Source of the DNA: Labedella populi
Lineage (GTDB): Bacteria > Actinomycetota > Actinomycetes > Actinomycetales > Microbacteriaceae
Assembly (NCBI RefSeq): GCF_004078655.1
Contig: NZ_RZNC01000001.1
Location: 434,001-498,000 of the forward strand
Length of the DNA stretch: 64,000 bases
Direction of reading: 5' to 3'
Positions 3,739 to 48,218 of the stretch are shown one piece after another. Numbering within the stretch: the first letter of the stretch is position 1; every line of letters starts with the position of its first letter. The position numbers and the translations under genes are program-made. The notes beneath the pieces were generated by a model that did no database searches, was not told the origin of the DNA, and saw nothing but the letters and a program-made list of their open reading frames with translations.

Positions 3739-4713
3739 TCACCATGAGCATTTCGACGTGACAGCCTTGACCGGATCCTTACTTGTGCCGCGGCTGCTCT
3801 CGAGGTCCCACGTCGGCTTCTTGTCGACCCCGAGCCATCCACCGACCCCGATGAGCGCCTTTCCCCAAGCATGGCAAAGCCACTGTTGACGATAGGTGAC
3901 CTTCCGAAGCTCTGTACCTTTCGACTTGCTCGACTTCGTCACCTTATTCAAGAGCTCACTCCACCCAGCCCAGTCCGCATCGTGGGAATTGATAGCCGCC
4001 ATCATCGGCGTCACTGACACAGAGATCGCGGGCTTGCCCTTATACGTCCACCACTTGAACTTCGAGATGAGGTCGACTCCCAGCCAGGGATCGGCAACGA
4101 CGGGGAACGCAGAATCCTTCGTGACCCCGACGTGCTGCGTGATCGTATTCCCTTGCATCGTGTAGTGGGTTTCCACCGCCTCGCCGTTCGCGTCAGTGGC
4201 CCAGGGCGGCGCCACAAAGACCGCTGGCGACCCGTCCAAGTTGTAGGCAACGGCTCCCCCGCCTTCTAGCGGCTCGAGTGCGGCTCCCTCAGGAAGGTCG
4301 ATCGTGTAGTCGTATGTCGTCGGCGCGCTGGAATCGTTCAGGACCGAGTGGATCGCGACGGAGCCGTCGTCAAGGACTGCTGGGACGACGCTGTATGACT
4401 CGTCGACAGACAGCGAAACCAGATTTTCTGCCAACGAGGAGTCTGCCGACTCTGCCACAGGTAACTCGACGGTCAAGTCCGTGCCACCGTCATCAAGGCT
4501 GACGGTGTTCCCGTTGACGGCCGCCTTCTGAGCGGATAGATCATCGAAGCGCTCTGCTACCGGCGATACGTCGGTGACATGCTCTGCGTCCGAAACGGCG
4601 TCGTCCGCGTAGGCGGGCACCACCGTCGCCCCTCCGATCATCGCCCCAAGTGAAATGGCAACGAGAACCATCTGATCCCGACGCCGTCTCACGCCGACCG
4701 ATTGCGTGTTCAT
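3739..4713 (-). CDS. secreted protein with C-terminal DUF2599-like domain
   Basis: A 324-residue exported protein. ATG 4713 is chosen because it follows GGGGGGAAC and begins a typical signal peptide (RRRR, then a hydrophobic stretch ending PAYADDA at about residue 39). The middle third is beta-rich with long acidic stretches. The last 45 residues (RQQWLCHAWG, later WDLESSRG and ending KCSW) contain the Cys, His and Trp pattern I associate with DUF2599, found at the ends of secreted actinobacterial proteins. Function is unknown. It is the first gene of a two-gene unit with the membrane protein at 3260 and is embedded in an accessory region. Confidence 0.65.
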   Translation of the reverse strand: MNTQSVGVRRRRDQMVLVAISLGAMIGGATVVPAYADDAVSDAEHVTDVSPVAERFDDLSAQKAAVNGNTVSLDDGGTDLTVELPVAESADSSLAENLVSLSVDESYSVVPAVLDDGSVAIHSVLNDSSAPTTYDYTIDLPEGAALEPLEGGGAVAYNLDGSPAVFVAPPWATDANGEAVETHYTMQGNTITQHVGVTKDSAFPVVADPWLGVDLISKFKWWTYKGKPAISVSVTPMMAAINSHDADWAGWSELLNKVTKSSKSKGTELRKVTYRQQWLCHAWGKALIGVGGWLGVDKKPTWDLESSRGTSKDPVKAVTSKCSW

Positions 4714-5052
4714 GTTCCCCCCTTCTACCGCGGACCCCCGGTTCGCCTGCTGTGAATCTAGCTCGGACGTCTCAGGAGCACAGTCGGGCAGATAGGGGAC
4801 GCAGTTGGGGGGTGACGCGGGAGTGCCGCAGCCGTCGCTTCTGACTCGGTGCAACTCCGAATGTTGGGACACGAATCTGTCGAGCCGTCACGTTGTCCGT
4901 ATGGGGATCGTTCCACGAGACCCCCCGGGAATCTTGTGGGCTTGTGTGATGCTTCGCCATGGTATGGCAACTTTCCTCGCTCGCACCCCAGGCGAGAGGG
5001 CGCCTCTCAGAAGACTCTTCCTACGCGGTAGCGCGCCACAAACAGGGCAAAA
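4714..5052. other. intergenic region without a recognisable gene
   Basis: About 340 bp upstream of the DUF2599-type gene. It contains one copy of the 18-bp motif but no reading frame that looks coding on either strand. Confidence 0.5.
4894..4911. repeat. dispersed 18-bp motif, copy 3
   Basis: TGTCCGTATGGGGATCGT, identical to copy 2. Copies 2 and 3 bracket the three minus-strand genes between 2375 and 4713 as a 2.6-kb direct-repeat unit. Confidence 0.6.
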
Positions 5053-5088
5053 TTATCGGGTGGGGGCCGGCTTGCCCCCACCCGATAA
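5053..5088 (-). terminator. strong hairpin terminator, minus strand
   Basis: A perfect 15-bp stem (TTATCGGGTGGGGGC, loop CGGCTT) followed on the minus strand by AATTTTGCCC. It lies about 70 bp outside the left end of the insertion sequence. Removing the IS would place it directly after the stop codon of the protease gene now at 6562, so it is probably that gene's original terminator. Confidence 0.7.
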
Positions 5089-5210
5089 GACCAGAACGAT
5101 TCGCGGGAAGTGTGGGTGGCTGTGGCTTACTTCCCGCTGCTCGAGCTGGTATGTGGGCTAGGGTGTGTTGCTAAAGGCGCTTCGGTAGCTAGCGGGTAAG
5201 TCTTGGACGC

Positions 5211-6093
5211 GTGTCGCGCGATGTGATTTCCGATGAGGCGTGGGCTGTGATCGGTCCGCTGTTCCCGACTGCCAAGGTGACCGGGCGGCCTCCGGTGGAT
5301 AGACGCATTGTGGTCGAGGCCACCGCGTGGAGGTTTCGCACGGGTGCGCCGTGGCGGGACGTGCCGGAGCGGTTCGGGAACTGGAACACGATCTACAAGA
5401 ACTTCAACCGGTGGGCCGAACAGGGCGTGTGGGTGCGCGTGCTGGAGAAGGCGCAGTCGCTCGCGCAGCAGTCCGGGGACCTGGATTGGGTCGCGTCGAT
5501 CGACTCCACGATCGTGCGCGTGCACCAGCACGGCGCTACCCTTCCCCGCACCACAGGGGGCTCTGTCGAACTACAAGAAGTTCGGTGAGGAACCGGCGGA
5601 TCACGCGATCGGCCGCTCCCGCGGTGGGCTGACGACAAAGAACCACCTGGTCTGCGACGGGAAGGGCAGGGCCCTCGCGTTCATCCTCACCCCGGGACAG
5701 GCGGCGGACACCAGCATGCTGACTGCGACGCTGAGCGAGATCCGCGTCCCGAGCGGGAGGGGCAGGCCGCGGTCCCGGCCGGACCGGGTGCTCGCGGACA
5801 AGGGCTACCCGTCGAAGGCAAACCGGGCCTGGCTGCGCGAGCGCGGAATCGCCGCGACGATCCCCGAGCGTGACGATCAGATCGCCCACCGGCGCAAGCG
5901 GCGCGGGCGACCGATCGATTTCGGCGACGAGCAGCGGGTCCGCTACCGCGGCCGCAACGTTGTCGAGCGATGCTTCAACAAGCTCAAGCAGTGGCGCGGG
6001 ATCGCGATGCGTTCAGACAAGACCGCCTGCAACTACCATTCCGGGCTCTGCCTCGCCGCGACACTCCACTGGCTCACCAGCAGCGTTCACTGA
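5211..6093 (+). CDS. IS5-family transposase, two overlapping frames
   Basis: The first frame (GTG 5211 to 5588) encodes the N-terminal helix-turn-helix region (DUF4096-like, GRPPVDRR) and the start of the DDE fold, with the first catalytic Asp in ASIDSTIVR. The second frame continues the protein from about 5560 to 6093 with GRSRGGLTTK, the second Asp in DRVLADKGYPSK, and the final Glu near GRNVVERCFNKLKQWRG. Joining them needs a +1 shift, or loss of one G, at the five-G run 5556-5560. Two-frame transposases with frameshifting are normal in this group, but a disabling single-base insertion cannot be excluded. Confidence 0.85.
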
Positions 6094-42562: not shown

Positions 42563-43531
42563 ATGTCGACACCGTCCGTCCCCTCGGCCCGCACGTACAG
42601 CTACCTGGGGCCGCGCGGGACGTTCACGGAGGCGGCCCTCGCGCAGGTCGAGGAGGCCGTCGGGCAGGAGTGGCGCTCCGTCAACAACGTCGGCGAGGCG
42701 CTCGACGACGTCGTCACGGGTCGGAGCGCGGCAGCGATGATCGCGATCGAGAACTCGATCGAGGGGGGCGTCTCCGTCGCCCAGGATGCGTTGTCGACGA
42801 TGCCGGGCTTGCGCATCATCGGCGAGTACCTCGTACACGTCGACTTCGTCCTCGTCGTCCGCCCCGGCATGCGGCTCGAGGATGTGAAGGTCGTCAACGC
42901 GCATCCCGTCGCCTACGCCCAGTGCCGGGGCTGGTTGGATCGCACGCTCCCGGGGCACGCCCACGTGCCGGCATCGAGCAACGTCCAGGCGGCCGCGAGT
43001 CTGCTGGAGAACGATCTGGCCGACGCGGCCGTCGCCCCGCCCGGGATCGTCGACCACCACGCCCTCGAGATCGTCGCACGCGGCATCATCGACAACCCGA
43101 ACGCGGTGACGCGCTTCGTGCTCGTGTCGACATCCCGCGAGCTGCCGCGCCCGACCGGGGCCGACAAGACGAGCCTCGTCGCCGAACTGCCCGTCGATCG
43201 AGCCGGCGCGCTGCTCGAGCTCCTCGAGCAGTTCTCCACCCGCGGCGTCAACATGAGCCTTCTCGAGTCCCGCCCCATCGGGGACGAGCTCGGTCGGTAC
43301 CGCTTCATCATCGACGCGGACGGCCACATCTTCGACGAGCGCGTGGCCGATGCTCTCCTCGGCGTGCGGCGTTTCAGCCCGAGCGTCGTCTTCCTCGGGT
43401 CCTACCCGAGGGCAGACGGGGCCCGAGTGGCGTTCGATCCGCGATACTCGGACGACGTGTTCATCGACGCACGCGACTGGTTGCGCGCGATCGTGAGCGG
43501 CGAACCCACGGTGCCGCTCGACGTCCCCTAG
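42563..43531 (+). CDS. pheA: prephenate dehydratase
   Basis: A 322-residue monofunctional prephenate dehydratase. The dehydratase domain (about 10-190) has YSYLGPRGTFTEAAL, AIENSIEGGV and the catalytic Thr in NAVTRF (183-185). The C-terminal ACT domain (about 200-275) contains ESRP (235-238) and senses phenylalanine. It makes phenylpyruvate from prephenate. ATG 42563 lies six bases after TAGGCT, so it is probably leaderless. A C-terminal 40-residue extension beyond ACT is typical in actinobacteria. Confidence 0.95.
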   Translation: MSTPSVPSARTYSYLGPRGTFTEAALAQVEEAVGQEWRSVNNVGEALDDVVTGRSAAAMIAIENSIEGGVSVAQDALSTMPGLRIIGEYLVHVDFVLVVRPGMRLEDVKVVNAHPVAYAQCRGWLDRTLPGHAHVPASSNVQAAASLLENDLADAAVAPPGIVDHHALEIVARGIIDNPNAVTRFVLVSTSRELPRPTGADKTSLVAELPVDRAGALLELLEQFSTRGVNMSLLESRPIGDELGRYRFIIDADGHIFDERVADALLGVRRFSPSVVFLGSYPRADGARVAFDPRYSDDVFIDARDWLRAIVSGEPTVPLDVP

Positions 43532-43550: not shown

Positions 43551-44306
43551 ATGGCCGATCACGACGGCATCGACCCGCGACACGACCCGATCTTCCAGCG
43601 CGGGTACGACCCCGCGGTGCACGGCGGCCCGGCCGAAGCGGGAGAGCGGTCCTCGGGGCGCTCCCGGGCCCGTCGTGAGGGCGACATCGAGCTCTTCGCA
43701 CCGCCGTCGTCTCGACGCTCGGGTCGTGACGGCATCACCCCGCACGATCCGGATCCGGTCTCCTCCGGTGCGCCGCTCGCCGACGATGCACCGGAGGAGT
43801 CACTCGACCCGTTCAGCTTCCTCACGCCGGCCTCCTCGGCACGCTCCGACCACGACGGCGACGAGGGCGACGACGCCGTTCACCGTGGACCGGAGCCGAC
43901 CGGCCCCGCCGACTCCGCGGTGCCCTGGAGGAACCCCTATCTCGTCGGACTCGTCGTCGGGGGCGCCGTGCTCGTGATCGCGGGCTTCCAGATGTTCCGC
44001 AGTGCGCTCGAGACCATCTACGTGGATTTCGCGCAGGGCGGCGTCATCTTCGGAAACGGCGGCACCGGAGCGGAGGAGGACCCGGATCCCTCCGGGGTCC
44101 TCGTGGCGATGCAGCTCGGCTGGTCGCTCGGCCCGCTGCTGTTCCTCATCGGCCTCGCGGCGATCCTCGCGGTCGTGGTCTTCGTCGCGGTGCGCTGGCG
44201 CCCAACGCGCCCGACGCGCCCAACGCGCCCAACGCGCCCGACGCGCCCGGCGAGCGAGGACGATGGGCCGGGTCGGGACGCGCCCGGGACGGAGCCGCTC
44301 TCGTGA
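43551..44306 (+). CDS. membrane protein, module A1
   Basis: A 251-residue protein with a disordered, acidic/arginine-rich N terminus (residues 1-125) and two membrane helices in the C-terminal part (about 130-150 and 190-215). Shared blocks with the gene at 45009 are NPYLVGLVVGGAVLVIAGFQ, FRSALETIYVDF and VAMQLGWSLGPLLFLIG. The C terminus contains a 9-bp repeat encoding TRP five times. GTG start of the next gene overlaps by 4 bp. It follows pheA by about 20 bp, so it may share its transcript. Confidence 0.7.
   Translation: MADHDGIDPRHDPIFQRGYDPAVHGGPAEAGERSSGRSRARREGDIELFAPPSSRRSGRDGITPHDPDPVSSGAPLADDAPEESLDPFSFLTPASSARSDHDGDEGDDAVHRGPEPTGPADSAVPWRNPYLVGLVVGGAVLVIAGFQMFRSALETIYVDFAQGGVIFGNGGTGAEEDPDPSGVLVAMQLGWSLGPLLFLIGLAAILAVVVFVAVRWRPTRPTRPTRPTRPTRPASEDDGPGRDAPGTEPLS
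44202..44246. repeat. 9-bp coding tandem repeat
   Basis: Five copies of CCRACGCGC, encoding (T)RP repeats at the C terminus of module A1. Such repeats change length easily. Confidence 0.9.
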
Positions 44307-44761
44307 GCCGCGTCCGCCCACTCGTCGCGATCGTCGTCGCGTCTCTCGCTGCGGTACTGCTCGTCGGCGGGGGCGCGCTCGTCATCGCCGACGCGAACGC
44401 GCGCGCGGTCGCCGCGAAGGGCGTCGTCGAGGAACTCCGCGAGTTCTACGCGGAGCAGGAGGGATACGACATCGGGGAACCGGCCCGGCTCGCTCGACTC
44501 GTCCTCGCCGATTCCCTCGCGAACGACGGTCCGACGCCCGTGCTCTTCACCGACGAGCAGGCGGACTACCGGGACGCCCGCTACGGGGCCTTCGGTGGGA
44601 TCTTCACCTACCTCCCTCTGCAGCGCCCGTGGGCTCCGCGGCTGATCACCGTGCCGATCGCGGCCGGCGCCGTGATCGGTGTGGTCTTCCTGCTCACCCG
44701 GGCGGCGACATGGTCGCCGCGGTCACCGGGTCGTGGGAACACGTCATCCTCGATCCGGTGA
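44303..44761 (+). CDS. membrane protein, module B1
   Basis: A 152-residue protein with an N-terminal signal-anchor helix, a soluble extracytoplasmic middle (about 30-110, with DANARAVAAKGVV, LRRLVL-like ARLVLADSLAN, YGAFGGIFTYLPLQRPWAPR) and a C-terminal helix. It overlaps module A1 by 4 bp. The paralogue at 45383 has the same plan: FADAQARLDAA, YGSFGGMGTG and PRPWIPRL. Function unknown. Confidence 0.7.
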   Translation: MSRVRPLVAIVVASLAAVLLVGGGALVIADANARAVAAKGVVEELREFYAEQEGYDIGEPARLARLVLADSLANDGPTPVLFTDEQADYRDARYGAFGGIFTYLPLQRPWAPRLITVPIAAGAVIGVVFLLTRAATWSPRSPGRGNTSSSIR

Positions 44762-44802
44762 CGGTGACGGTGACCGTGACGGTGACGGTGACGGTGACGG
44801 TG
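44758..44802. repeat. 6-bp tandem repeat
   Basis: GTGACG repeated about seven and a half times, with one copy GTGACC, beginning at the stop codon of module B1. It lies in the 247-bp gap before the second module; no other gene is seen in that gap. Confidence 0.9.
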
Positions 44803-45008
44803 CCGACGGCCGGGCGATCCTCCATGCGCGCAAGCAGGCACGCCTCGAGTGGTTTGGACGAGCTGTTCCCTCAGCTCGACCTCTGAGGGATACTCGACGG
44901 AAGAGGCCCGGGCCCGCGCCCGCATCGCGTCGAAGGCGACGGACGGGCATCCCGGGAGCGCGGCTCCACCCGAGTCTCGCTCCCCACGAGGGCGGGAGGT
45001 GCGTGGGG

Positions 45009-45386
45009 ATGGACGGGAACAACGCCCCAGACGAGCATCCGGCGCCCGGCCGCGCAGCACCGACGCCGCGTGCGCGGGACCGCCGCGGCGTCGGCGCGCT
45101 CTGGAACCCCCACGTCGTCATGCTCGTCGTCGGAGGACTCGCGCTCGTCGCCATCGGGGTGCGGCTCTACCGTTCGGCGCTCGCCGTCGTCTACTCGGAC
45201 TTCACGAGTCGTGGCACGCACGGACTCACGGACGTCGAATCCGCCGACCGGGATCCGGCGCAGGATCTCGTCGCGATGCAGGTCGAGTGGACGATCGGAC
45301 CGCTGCTGATCGCGTTCGGTCTCCTCGCCGTCCTGGTCGGCGTGACGGTGCTCGCGGTGCGCTGGTGCGGGGGACCACGACGATGA
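45009..45386 (+). CDS. membrane protein, module A2
   Basis: A 125-residue paralogue of module A1 without the long disordered N terminus. The core is conserved: NPHVVMLVVGGLALVAIGVR, YRSALAVVYSDF and VAMQVEWTIGPLLIAFGLLA, with two membrane helices. ATG 45009 has GGGAGG upstream. It overlaps module B2 by 4 bp. Function unknown. Confidence 0.68.
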   Translation: MDGNNAPDEHPAPGRAAPTPRARDRRGVGALWNPHVVMLVVGGLALVAIGVRLYRSALAVVYSDFTSRGTHGLTDVESADRDPAQDLVAMQVEWTIGPLLIAFGLLAVLVGVTVLAVRWCGGPRR

Positions 45387-45910
45387 CGGGCACGCGCCGC
45401 CTCCTCGTGGGGCTCATCGGCTCCGGGCTGTCGTTCGTGCTCATCGCCGTGGGCGTCGTGCTCGTGTTCGCCGACGCGCAGGCCCGGCTCGACGCGGCGA
45501 CCCGCATCGCGATCCAGTCGGAGGTGCTCGACGAGGCGCCGGTGCGAACATCCCCAGACGTCGTCGCCCGCACGATCGTCGTCGACTCCATGTCCCTCGA
45601 CGGTCCGCTGCCGCGCTACTCGATCGTCGTGGTGGACGCGGCGGGTTACCGGAGGACGATCGACGACCCGCACGGCGTCGTCTTCGTCGACGAGGGCGGC
45701 TACCAGTACGTCTCCTACGGCTCGTTCGGCGGCATGGGGACCGGTTCGCCCGTTCCCCTCCCGCGCCCGTGGATCCCTCGACTCGTCGGCGCCGTCCTCG
45801 CCGCGGGACTCTCCCTCGCCGTCGCGACGGGAGCGGGGCTCGCCCTCACGTGGCGGCCCCCGCGAGCGGGCACCGACTCGAGCGAGCGAGCGGCCGCTTC
45901 GCCAGCGTAG
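45383..45910 (+). CDS. membrane protein, module B2
   Basis: A 175-residue paralogue of module B1: N-terminal helix (residues about 8-28), extracytoplasmic domain with TIVVDSMSLDG, YGSFGGMGTG and PRPWIPRL, then a C-terminal helix. Its ATG overlaps module A2 by 4 bp. It converges with dagK, whose stop lies 15 bp away. Confidence 0.68.
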   Translation: MTGTRRLLVGLIGSGLSFVLIAVGVVLVFADAQARLDAATRIAIQSEVLDEAPVRTSPDVVARTIVVDSMSLDGPLPRYSIVVVDAAGYRRTIDDPHGVVFVDEGGYQYVSYGSFGGMGTGSPVPLPRPWIPRLVGAVLAAGLSLAVATGAGLALTWRPPRAGTDSSERAAASPA

Positions 45911-45925
45911 GACCGCGTGCCACGC

Positions 45926-46918
45926 CTAGCGGATCGACGCGAGCGGGACGCGGACCGCGAGGGCGCTCGGTCGTGTCGAGAAGGCGACGGCCGTGCCCGA
46001 ACCGAAGTCGTCGCCGTCGAGCTCGACCTCGTTCGGCTCGTCGAGTCCGATGGTGACGCCCGAGCTGCGGAGGTAGGTGATGGTCTTCCCGGCCCCGCCG
46101 CGCGCGTTCGCCTCGATGATCTGTCGTCCGATGCTGAAGCGGCGGAGGGCGCGGTTCTGCCAGGAGACGCGGCGCCACACCTGGAACCAGCCGACGATGC
46201 CCTTGGGCTGGAGAACGGCGATGTCGAGGAGCCCGTCGTCGACCGATGCGCCCGGCAGCAGTTCGATCCCGCCGGGGAGCAGCCCGCAGTTGCCGACGAT
46301 CACCGTCGAGACGTGTGCACTGTGCTCGTTGTGTCCCTGCAGTCGGTACCGGACCCGGAAGGGTCGCGAGGCGGGGATGGCGCGGAGCCCCGCATCGACG
46401 TAGGCGAGCCACCCGACCGCGCGCTTCAGCGCAGGATTCGTATTCGCCATGATCTGCGCGTCGATGCCCACCCCGGCCATGACGAGGAAGGCGTGCGCGT
46501 CCGTCGACCCGTCGCCACGGGCGATGCGGGCTTCTCCGATGTCGATGTTGCGAGTGACGCCCCTGAACGCGGTCGCCACGCTTCGCGAGACATCGGACAG
46601 GGGGAGGTCGAGGTTGCGTGCGAGCAGGTTCCCGGTGCCCGACGGCAGGATGCCGAGCGGGACGCCCGTGCCGACGAGCGCCTCCGCGACGGAGCGCACG
46701 GTACCGTCGCCGCCCGCCGCCATCACGAGGCCGGCGCCGGCTGCGACGAGGACGCGTGTGAGCCCGGCGCCCGGGTCGTCGACGCTCGTCGCGACCCAGC
46801 GCGTCTCGCCCCAGCCCTCGGCGACGGCCGTCAGCTCGACGATCGGTCGCAGCGCCCCGATGTCGATCTTCACGGGGTTGTAGACGACCGCGGCCCAGCG
46901 AGATCCCGCAGCACCCAT
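45926..46918 (-). CDS. diacylglycerol/lipid kinase family protein
   Basis: A 330-residue protein of the DagK/YegS family: N-terminal [10 protein letters not shown], nucleotide motif [15 protein letters not shown] (about 68-82), [19 protein letters not shown] (about 90-108), and a C-terminal beta-rich lipid domain containing [13 protein letters not shown]. It phosphorylates diacylglycerol or a related lipid at the membrane. ATG 46918 lies six bases after TAGGTT on the minus strand and has no Shine-Dalgarno, so it is probably leaderless and divergent from serS. Confidence 0.9.
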
Positions 46919-46924
46919 GAGGAC

Positions 46925-46945
46925 AACCTACCCGGCGCATAGACT
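46925..46945. promoter_or_regulatory. back-to-back leaderless promoters of dagK and serS
   Basis: TAGGTT on the minus strand (46925-46930, six bases before the dagK ATG) and TAGACT on the plus strand (46940-46945, seven bases before the serS GTG) lie within 34 bp of the two starts. Neither gene has a Shine-Dalgarno. Confidence 0.55.
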
Positions 46946-46952
46946 GGGCTGC

Positions 46953-48218
46953 GTGATCGATCCAGTGCTCTTGCGTGAGAATCCCGACATCGTTCGACGC
47001 TCGCAGGAGGCGCGAGGGGCCTCCATCGAGGTCGTCTCGGAGGCGCTCGATGCAGACGCGGCCAAACGGGCCGCGATCACTCGGTTCGAGACGCTGCGAG
47101 CCGAGCAGAACGCGCACGGGAAGCGTGTCGCTCAGGCTCCGAAGGAAGAGAAGGCCGCTCTCGTCGCGCAAGCGAAGGGCCTCTCCGAGCAGGTCAAGGC
47201 GGCGCAGCAGGAGCAGAACGAGGCCGACGCGCGCTACGCCGCTGCGGTCGCGCAGATCCAGAACATCGTCCTCGACGGCGTGCCGGCCGGCGGTGAGGAC
47301 GACTTCGTCACGTTGCGAGAGGTCGGCGAGAAGCCGACCTTCGACTTCGAGCCCCGCGACCACCTCGAGATCGGCGAGCTCCTCGACGCCATCGACATGG
47401 CGCGTGGAACCAAGGTCTCGGGGGCGCGCTTCTACTTCCTCAAGGGCATCGGGGCGCGTCTCGAACTCGCGCTCATGAACCTCGCCCTCGACCGCGCTCT
47501 CGAGGCCGGCTTCATCCCGCTCATCACTCCGACGCTCGTCAAGCCGGAGATCATGTCGGGCACCGGTTTCCTCGGTGCGCACTCCGACGAGATCTACTAC
47601 CTGCCGGACGACGACCTCTACCTCACCGGCACGAGCGAGGTGGCGCTCGCCGGGTACCACGCCGACGAGATCCTCGACCTCTCGGACGGGGCCCTCCGCT
47701 ACGCCGGTTGGTCGACGTGCTATCGCCGCGAGGCCGGGTCCTACGGGAAGGACACGCGCGGCATCATCCGGGTGCACCAGTTCAACAAGCTCGAGATGTT
47801 CGTGCACACGACGCCGGATGACGCCGCAGCGGAGCACGAGCGGCTGCTCGGCTACCAGGAGCGCATGATGGCCGACCTCGGTTTGTCCTACCGCGTGATC
47901 GACACCGCGGCGGGCGACCTGGGCTCGAGCGCCGCGCGCAAGTTCGACGTCGAGGCGTGGGTGCCGACGCAGGACGCGTATCGTGAGCTCACCTCGACCT
48001 CCAACTGCACGACCTTCCAGGCCCGGCGGCTCGGTATCCGTTCCCGTGGCGAGGACGGGAGGACGGCGCCCGTCGCGACCCTGAACGGAACGCTCGCGAC
48101 GACACGGTGGCTCGTGGCGATCCTCGAGACGCATCAGCAGGAGGACGGCTCCGTCGTCATCCCGGAGGTGCTGCGCCCGTATCTCGGTGGCCTCGACGTC
48201 GCGGCTCCGCGCCGATGA
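46953..48218 (+). CDS. serS: serine--tRNA ligase
   Basis: A 421-residue class II aminoacyl-tRNA synthetase. The N-terminal coiled-coil arm (about 28-105) binds tRNA; the catalytic core has [17 protein letters not shown], motif 2 [20 protein letters not shown] and motif 3 in [19 protein letters not shown]. It charges tRNA-Ser, two copies of which are in this window. GTG 46953 is leaderless. It overlaps the HAD gene by 4 bp. Confidence 0.96.

Follow-up and report, generated by a model that had tools for sequence, protein, structure and literature searches.

Comparative analysis of the window, a stretch of 64,000 nucleotides from the 3.42 Mb genome of Labedella populi (family Microbacteriaceae), revealed two tandem copies of a two-gene membrane module (A1-B1 and A2-B2), whose members belong to a family outside the existing catalogues, are under purifying selection and, in nearly all A proteins examined, carry a short conserved N-terminal motif that we tentatively interpret as a docking tag for a cytoplasmic partner. 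All four genes lie on the forward strand. A1 (43551..44306) encodes 251 aa, comprising the N-terminal motif (residues 8-21, codons 43572..43613), a disordered linker, a two-helix hairpin (residues 129-162 and 180-215 in the AlphaFold model) and an Arg-rich C-terminal tail. B1 (44303..44761, GTG start, 152 aa) encodes a two-helix hairpin with a predicted outer domain. After a gap of 247 bp (44762..45008) follow A2 (45009..45386, ATG start, 125 aa), a hairpin in which the A-family motif was not found, and B2 (45383..45910, ATG start, 175 aa), again a hairpin with a predicted outer domain. Two hydrophobic segments were predicted in each of the four proteins, and the open reading frames of each pair overlap by 4 bp (GTGA in A1/B1 and ATGA in A2/B2). 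The gene order, overlaps and matching sequence blocks given in a preliminary description of this DNA were all recovered, with exact coordinates and every named block present in both copies. That description had missed the long motif-bearing tail of A1, an additional B gene in Labedella phragmitis, the distant kinship of A with B, and the short distance of 19 bp between A1 and the upstream pheA gene (prephenate dehydratase, 42563..43531, forward strand; Pfam PF00800, E 2.1e-42). Downstream, a diacylglycerol-kinase-like gene (45926..46918, reverse strand) converges on B2 at a distance of 15 bp and is followed by serS (46917..48218, forward strand), a conserved further neighbour, both named by reading the sequence; overall, the genes identified around the window copy are PGM, pheA, lipid kinase, serS and HAD-type genes. 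No consensus promoters or terminators were found between 43300 and 46000, compared with 0.0 and 0.2 expected. A hexamer array (CGGTGA, 7.8 copies, 44756-44802) spans the B1 stop codon, lies mostly in the gap between B1 and A2 and adjoins the position of the additional B gene of L. phragmitis. A 9-bp repeat (5.7 copies, 44198-44248) encodes an Arg-Pro-Thr run in the A1 C-terminus, absent from the other 16 rows of an A alignment.

The homology of the two copies is clear from local alignment. A1 and A2 share 52 of 111 aligned residues (47%), with a score of 204 against a shuffle maximum of 56, and B1 and B2 share 57 of 139 (41%), with a score of 176 against a maximum of 72; in neither case did any of 1000 shuffles score as well. 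Comparison with L. phragmitis gave dN/dS values of 0.36 (A1), 0.20 (B1), 0.23 (A2) and 0.21 (B2), whereas pheA and serS yielded 0.08 and 0.05, respectively. All four genes are intact and under purifying selection, and their dN/dS values, well below 1 but above those of the two comparison genes, characterize them as selected, fast-evolving proteins. The earlier view of a tandem-duplicated two-gene membrane module, both copies of which have been retained, is thus upheld. As for the A proteins having been assigned to the inner membrane, their membrane nature stands, but the term does not, since Micrococcales are monoderm and the compartment should be called the cytoplasmic membrane.

The module had been described as being of unknown function, and profile searches agree with this: A1, B1, A2 and B2 all fall below the cut-offs of every Pfam (best E 0.0066) and NCBIfam (best E 0.054) model. 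Wider searches of 62 A and 23 B rows against Pfam, and of the 62 A rows against NCBIfam, yielded weak, scattered matches; a second scan of ten A rows gave no match at E 0.01, and PADLOC anti-phage defence models gave none at E 0.1 for the four window proteins. With respect to a mobile origin, B2 had no match in plasmids and A1 none in phages.

Profiles built from the two families differ strongly in their distribution. At E<=0.001, the A profile had matches in 184 of the 398 Microbacteriaceae genomes, covering 52 of 85 genera, a count that may be low because only seven first-look candidates were scored per genome. In a sample of the order, 11 of 198 genomes matched, five of them outside the family, and in a sample of the phylum 37 of 246; none of the 33 phylum-sample matches beyond the order was better than E 1e-6, and several fell in frames interrupted by stops; they were not accepted as members. 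A third match in the window genome (contig C2, E 2.3e-4) is of the same kind as these weak ones and was not counted, and four loci fetched on low-scoring A-like matches (L060-L063) lacked the motif and were dropped as unrelated. Both A1 and A2 possess the hairpin signature of the family, namely an NP pair ahead of helix 1 and the residues P, G, A and W at fixed positions in helix 2, and it is on this basis that A2 is counted as a member. The B profile matched 26 of 299 Microbacteriaceae genomes, with 19 strong matches (3e-13 or better) in five genera; the remaining seven had E-values between 1e-4 and 1e-3, and three of these overlap A genes. In all 19 strong-B genomes, 15 of which are outside Labedella, B adjoins A on the same strand. 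This outcome favours a functional module, which had been considered unlikely should homologues occur singly and A and B not be neighbours elsewhere. B1 and B2 share the features of this family, i.e. a hairpin with an outer loop (84-111 aa in 19 proteins) and an A gene alongside. Among 28 pheA-type loci (27 surveyed plus L154), 18 have, as counted by reading, a second hairpin gene on the same strand no more than about 100 bp downstream of A; L050, where the frame of B is broken, and L120, which has another kind of two-segment protein, do not enter this count. In six of the 18 this second gene is short (80-127 aa). Longer arrays recur, with four membrane genes in a row in L206 and also four in L139. 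In L054 (genome G065, 3745-5152), three genes encode four hairpins in a row, two of them fused in a 185-aa protein, and in L050 (genome G173, about 5500-5920) the B gene is split across two frames while A is intact.

The A proteins have in common an N-terminal motif, DPR[YF]xPxFQRG[YF], with H replacing Y/F in some of them, A1 included. It is present within about the first 35 residues in 60 of 62 aligned A rows, although most added rows had been chosen by the motif and the start is arbitrary where no Met occurs within 35 residues; the figure free of this bias is therefore 38 of the 40 profile-fetched loci (L117-L156), the other two being L154, with a variant, and L151, from outside the family, with none. 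The two rows of the 62 that lack it are both A2, one from the window and one from L. phragmitis, and no motif is encoded in frame upstream of the window A2. In the 62-row alignment, most rows of which were motif-picked, conservation peaks in the motif, at 2.94 bits per column, compared with 0.76 for the linker, 1.93 and 1.66 for the helices and 0.88 for the loop. The linker measures 49-157 aa in 58 rows and contains 34% Ala+Pro. In the AlphaFold model of A1, pLDDT is 87 in block 11-20, 52-63 in blocks 31-120 and about 95 in the helix cores. A scan of the fetched loci (803 kb without duplicates) gave 69 motif matches, which reduce to 62 distinct ORFs once six duplicated stretches and the double motif of one ORF are allowed for; all fall in A-type ORFs, 67 with two predicted segments and two with one, a test of specificity that is local, since the scanned DNA surrounds A genes. 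Counted by handle over the loci, 38 genera have A genes that retain the motif. One A protein (L129, genome G235, 6000 and 6108) carries the N-terminal motif twice in tandem. A literature search returned no paper on FQRGY and none on conserved signature proteins of Microbacteriaceae.

The history of the duplication was examined in the relatives of the window strain. At the same place, L. phragmitis has the order A1-B1-B'-A2-B2, with the additional gene B' between the pairs, and L. endophytica and a third Labedella species (G001) have A-B-B'. A single A-B pair is found there in eight loci of three other genera (g2, g3 and g64; L052, L053, L055, L056, L065, L066, L149 and L150), followed in six of the eight by a glutamate-dehydrogenase-like gene, identified by reading. 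The B protein tree unites the B1 orthologues of four Labedella species to the exclusion of B' and B2 (support 98/94) and places all Labedella B copies (B1, B' and B2) in one clade (100/99); the grouping of Labedella A1 with A2 received 93/91, under the mark of the tool. A search for a B' remnant between B1 and A2 of the window returned none, only B1 itself and a 16-residue match with E 1.9. The single Labedella B clade, together with the single pairs of the other three genera, contradicts the notion that the duplication is old, at least at family level, and an origin of the copies in the Labedella stem is probable. The simplest history would involve a duplication in this stem, after which the window line lost B' and two species lost A2-B2; alternatively, a copy may have arisen later, in the line shared by the window and L. 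phragmitis, and evolved fast. In the third Labedella species (L048, 6577-7071), a gene for a 164-aa MarR-type-like protein, identified by reading, lies between B' and the lipid kinase, the position taken by A2-B2 in the window and in L. phragmitis.

Such turnover invites the explanation that these are simply fast-evolving membrane proteins that have little selected function, or none, and persist by chance. The divergent loops and linkers fit it, as do dN/dS values above those of pheA and serS and copies that come and go, B' being absent from the window and A2-B2 from two species. We nevertheless consider it very unlikely, because the four genes are intact, their dN/dS is well below 1 and the motif persists in 38 genera.

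A and B are distantly related to each other through their second membrane helix, as judged from profile comparison. Aligned with each other, the two profiles match along 42 columns of helix 2 with an hhalign probability of 91.5% (pairwise E 8.7e-7), and smaller alignments gave 88.8%. In a control set drawn from the fetched loci (221 membrane proteins, none longer than 400 aa), the B profile matched 19 of the 67 A proteins at E<0.01, together with two of 138 other membrane proteins, both of which lie directly after A; since the remaining 48 A proteins had no match at this threshold, the relation rests on part of the set. In the opposite direction, the A profile matched eight of 16 B proteins and five of 138 others, three of which adjoin A, the other two being one-helix proteins of 45 aa that are unrelated in place.

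In the model of B2 (23 rows, mean pLDDT 75.9), a long helix (2-49), a helix at 58-72 and a helix at 134-156 were obtained, with the predicted outer domain composed of helix 58-72 and strands 80-84, 90-92 and 107-111; the outer part has pLDDT values of 52-82. The distribution of Lys and Arg per 30 flanking residues (5.7 inside versus 1.5 outside in 20 A proteins, and 6.1 versus 3.1 in 19 B proteins) fits an inside position of both termini, more sharply in A than in B. Three B columns are invariant in 23 rows (R35, G142 and A154), which suits a scaffold rather than an enzyme. Foldseek searches of the A1 and B2 models against the PDB gave no match at E<=0.001, and VIA-align 2 gave B2 Z values up to 5.7 with long-helix proteins, in a range that its own note calls uninformative.

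Taken from the sequences and models, a possible, though rather less than probable, reading is that A and B, as related hairpins made from one message, would most likely come together in the cytoplasmic membrane as a complex of four or more helices. In such a complex, B would display a small, variable and probably non-enzymatic outer domain, while A, through a short conserved tag on a long flexible cytoplasmic linker, would bind a putative partner common to Microbacteriaceae, which the complex would thereby hold at the membrane. Duplication of the pair, and a further one of B, would have taken place in the Labedella stem; as the second A has no such tail, A2-B2 would be a docking-less copy that may modulate or dilute the first pair. 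The 4-bp overlaps, the adjacency of A and B in 19 of 19 genomes, the kinship of their profiles, the conserved motif and the inward charge bias favour this tethering bundle, whereas the many A genes without a long-loop B (A in 184 of 398 genomes versus strong B in 19 of 299) speak against it, as do the differing neighbours of A, the 48 A proteins missed by the B profile, the lack of Foldseek matches and the low pLDDT in parts of the outer region of B2.

The same architecture could alternatively serve as a sensor pair, in which the outer domain of B would perceive an envelope signal and the tail of A would relay it inward. The outer domain of B, the conserved A tail and the co-translation of the two genes are in keeping with signalling, and a sigma-factor-like gene, identified by reading, follows A on the same strand at about 110-125 bp in two loci (L118, 5076-5567; L134, 5300-5809) and lies about 1.5 kb from A in a third (L138). 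None of these three loci has a long-loop B. Against this reading, three of 54 loci are few, no regulator is present among the genes read around the window copy, and the outer domain of B lacks conserved pocket residues. On balance, a sensor function seems unlikely.

The gene neighbourhoods of A are variable. Of 60 loci examined, 54 bear the motif. The surrounding stretch contains pheA or the diacylglycerol kinase-serS genes in 27 of them and Fpg or a long gene read as Lhr in 17; three loci are next to MoxR, two next to an arabinofuranosidase gene and five elsewhere, with Fpg, MoxR and arabinofuranosidase named by Pfam in one locus each. The context therefore points to no single pathway. This variety bears on the idea that A-B is a membrane accessory of pheA or of the lipid kinase, which might, for example, connect the envelope with the supply of aromatic amino acids or with the recycling of lipids. 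Half of the motif-bearing loci are of this type, A1 starts 19 bp after pheA, and in six loci from four genera (L058, L122, L126, L141, L154 and L156) the gene calls for A and pheA share 4 bp. Yet other loci lie with Fpg or Lhr-like genes, MoxR or an arabinofuranosidase gene, and in a survey of pheA the motif was found behind the gene in 16 of 70 loci, with 18 profile matches (one, L200, without motif; another, L211, with E 0.0014, looks spurious). That count covers 70 of the 86 pheA genomes, one locus offering only 9 bp to read (L195) and 30 extending only about 1.5 kb downstream, and it is an underestimate, five of the 16 genomes left out having A behind pheA (G028, G073, G081, G085 and G094). 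Such a metabolic link is judged quite unlikely.

Another possibility is that a MoxR AAA+ ATPase and its partners use the hairpins as clients or adaptors, with the motif as the handle. In three of the 54 loci (L057, L064 and L147), A directly precedes MoxR with a 4-bp overlap of the gene calls, and DUF58-like and transglutaminase-like genes, identified by reading, follow; MoxR was recognized by Pfam in L147 and by similarity to L147 in the other two. This arrangement was seen in only two genera (g18 and g93), however, and no MoxR is found among the neighbours of the window copy. A role of this kind has little probability.

If the motif is indeed a docking tag, its partner should be a machine shared by Microbacteriaceae and linked to the membrane. 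A broader and rather doubtful extension of the tethering reading is that the hairpin scaffolds of this family form a combinatorial set in which one docking tag would serve a single cytoplasmic machine, and tagless copies would act as competitors setting the amount held at the membrane. The Labedella array offers a natural comparison, in adjacent genes, of a pair with the tag and a pair without it. The A profile has matches in nearly half of the sampled Microbacteriaceae genomes, and the family possesses a sharp signature that lends itself to testing.

Among known proteins, two membrane protein families are among the closest. DUF6264 (PF19779), an uncharacterized one, weakly matches three of 62 A rows (best E 6e-5) and occurs in all 52 A-bearing Microbacteriaceae genomes searched, over cut-off in 51; its listed over-cut-off matches, however, are not at known A loci (the copy of the window genome being on contig C2), and A1, B1, A2 and B2 had no match to it at E<=1, which identifies it as a separate protein of the same genomes. 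It was over cut-off in none of 14 control genomes and thus looks specific to Microbacteriaceae or their relatives. DUF2157 (PF09925), a predicted membrane protein family, weakly matches five of 62 A rows and one of 23 B rows (best E 1.2e-3 and 1.3e-3, respectively), but none of the four window proteins at E<=1, and the likeness may reflect hydrophobic composition only. In sequence searches of the PDB, the best E-values were 0.019 for the A profile and 0.28 for the B profile, the former with a helix-loop-helix stretch of the tetraspanin CD9 (6k4j); this value is not significant and is regarded as chance, and a Tspan15 complex appeared in the Foldseek search of the A1 model at E 3.8. Tetraspanins have four helices in one chain, whereas A and B chains have two hydrophobic segments each, although a heteromer could still have four. 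Finally, ZipA of Escherichia coli is a membrane tether with its binding end on a flexible linker. A and B differ from it in their two-helix hairpins, in the N-terminal motif of ~12 residues and in the co-encoded second hairpin; by analogy, the A protein would resemble it in combining a membrane anchor and a disordered Pro/Ala-rich linker with a conserved end that may bind a putative cytoplasmic partner.
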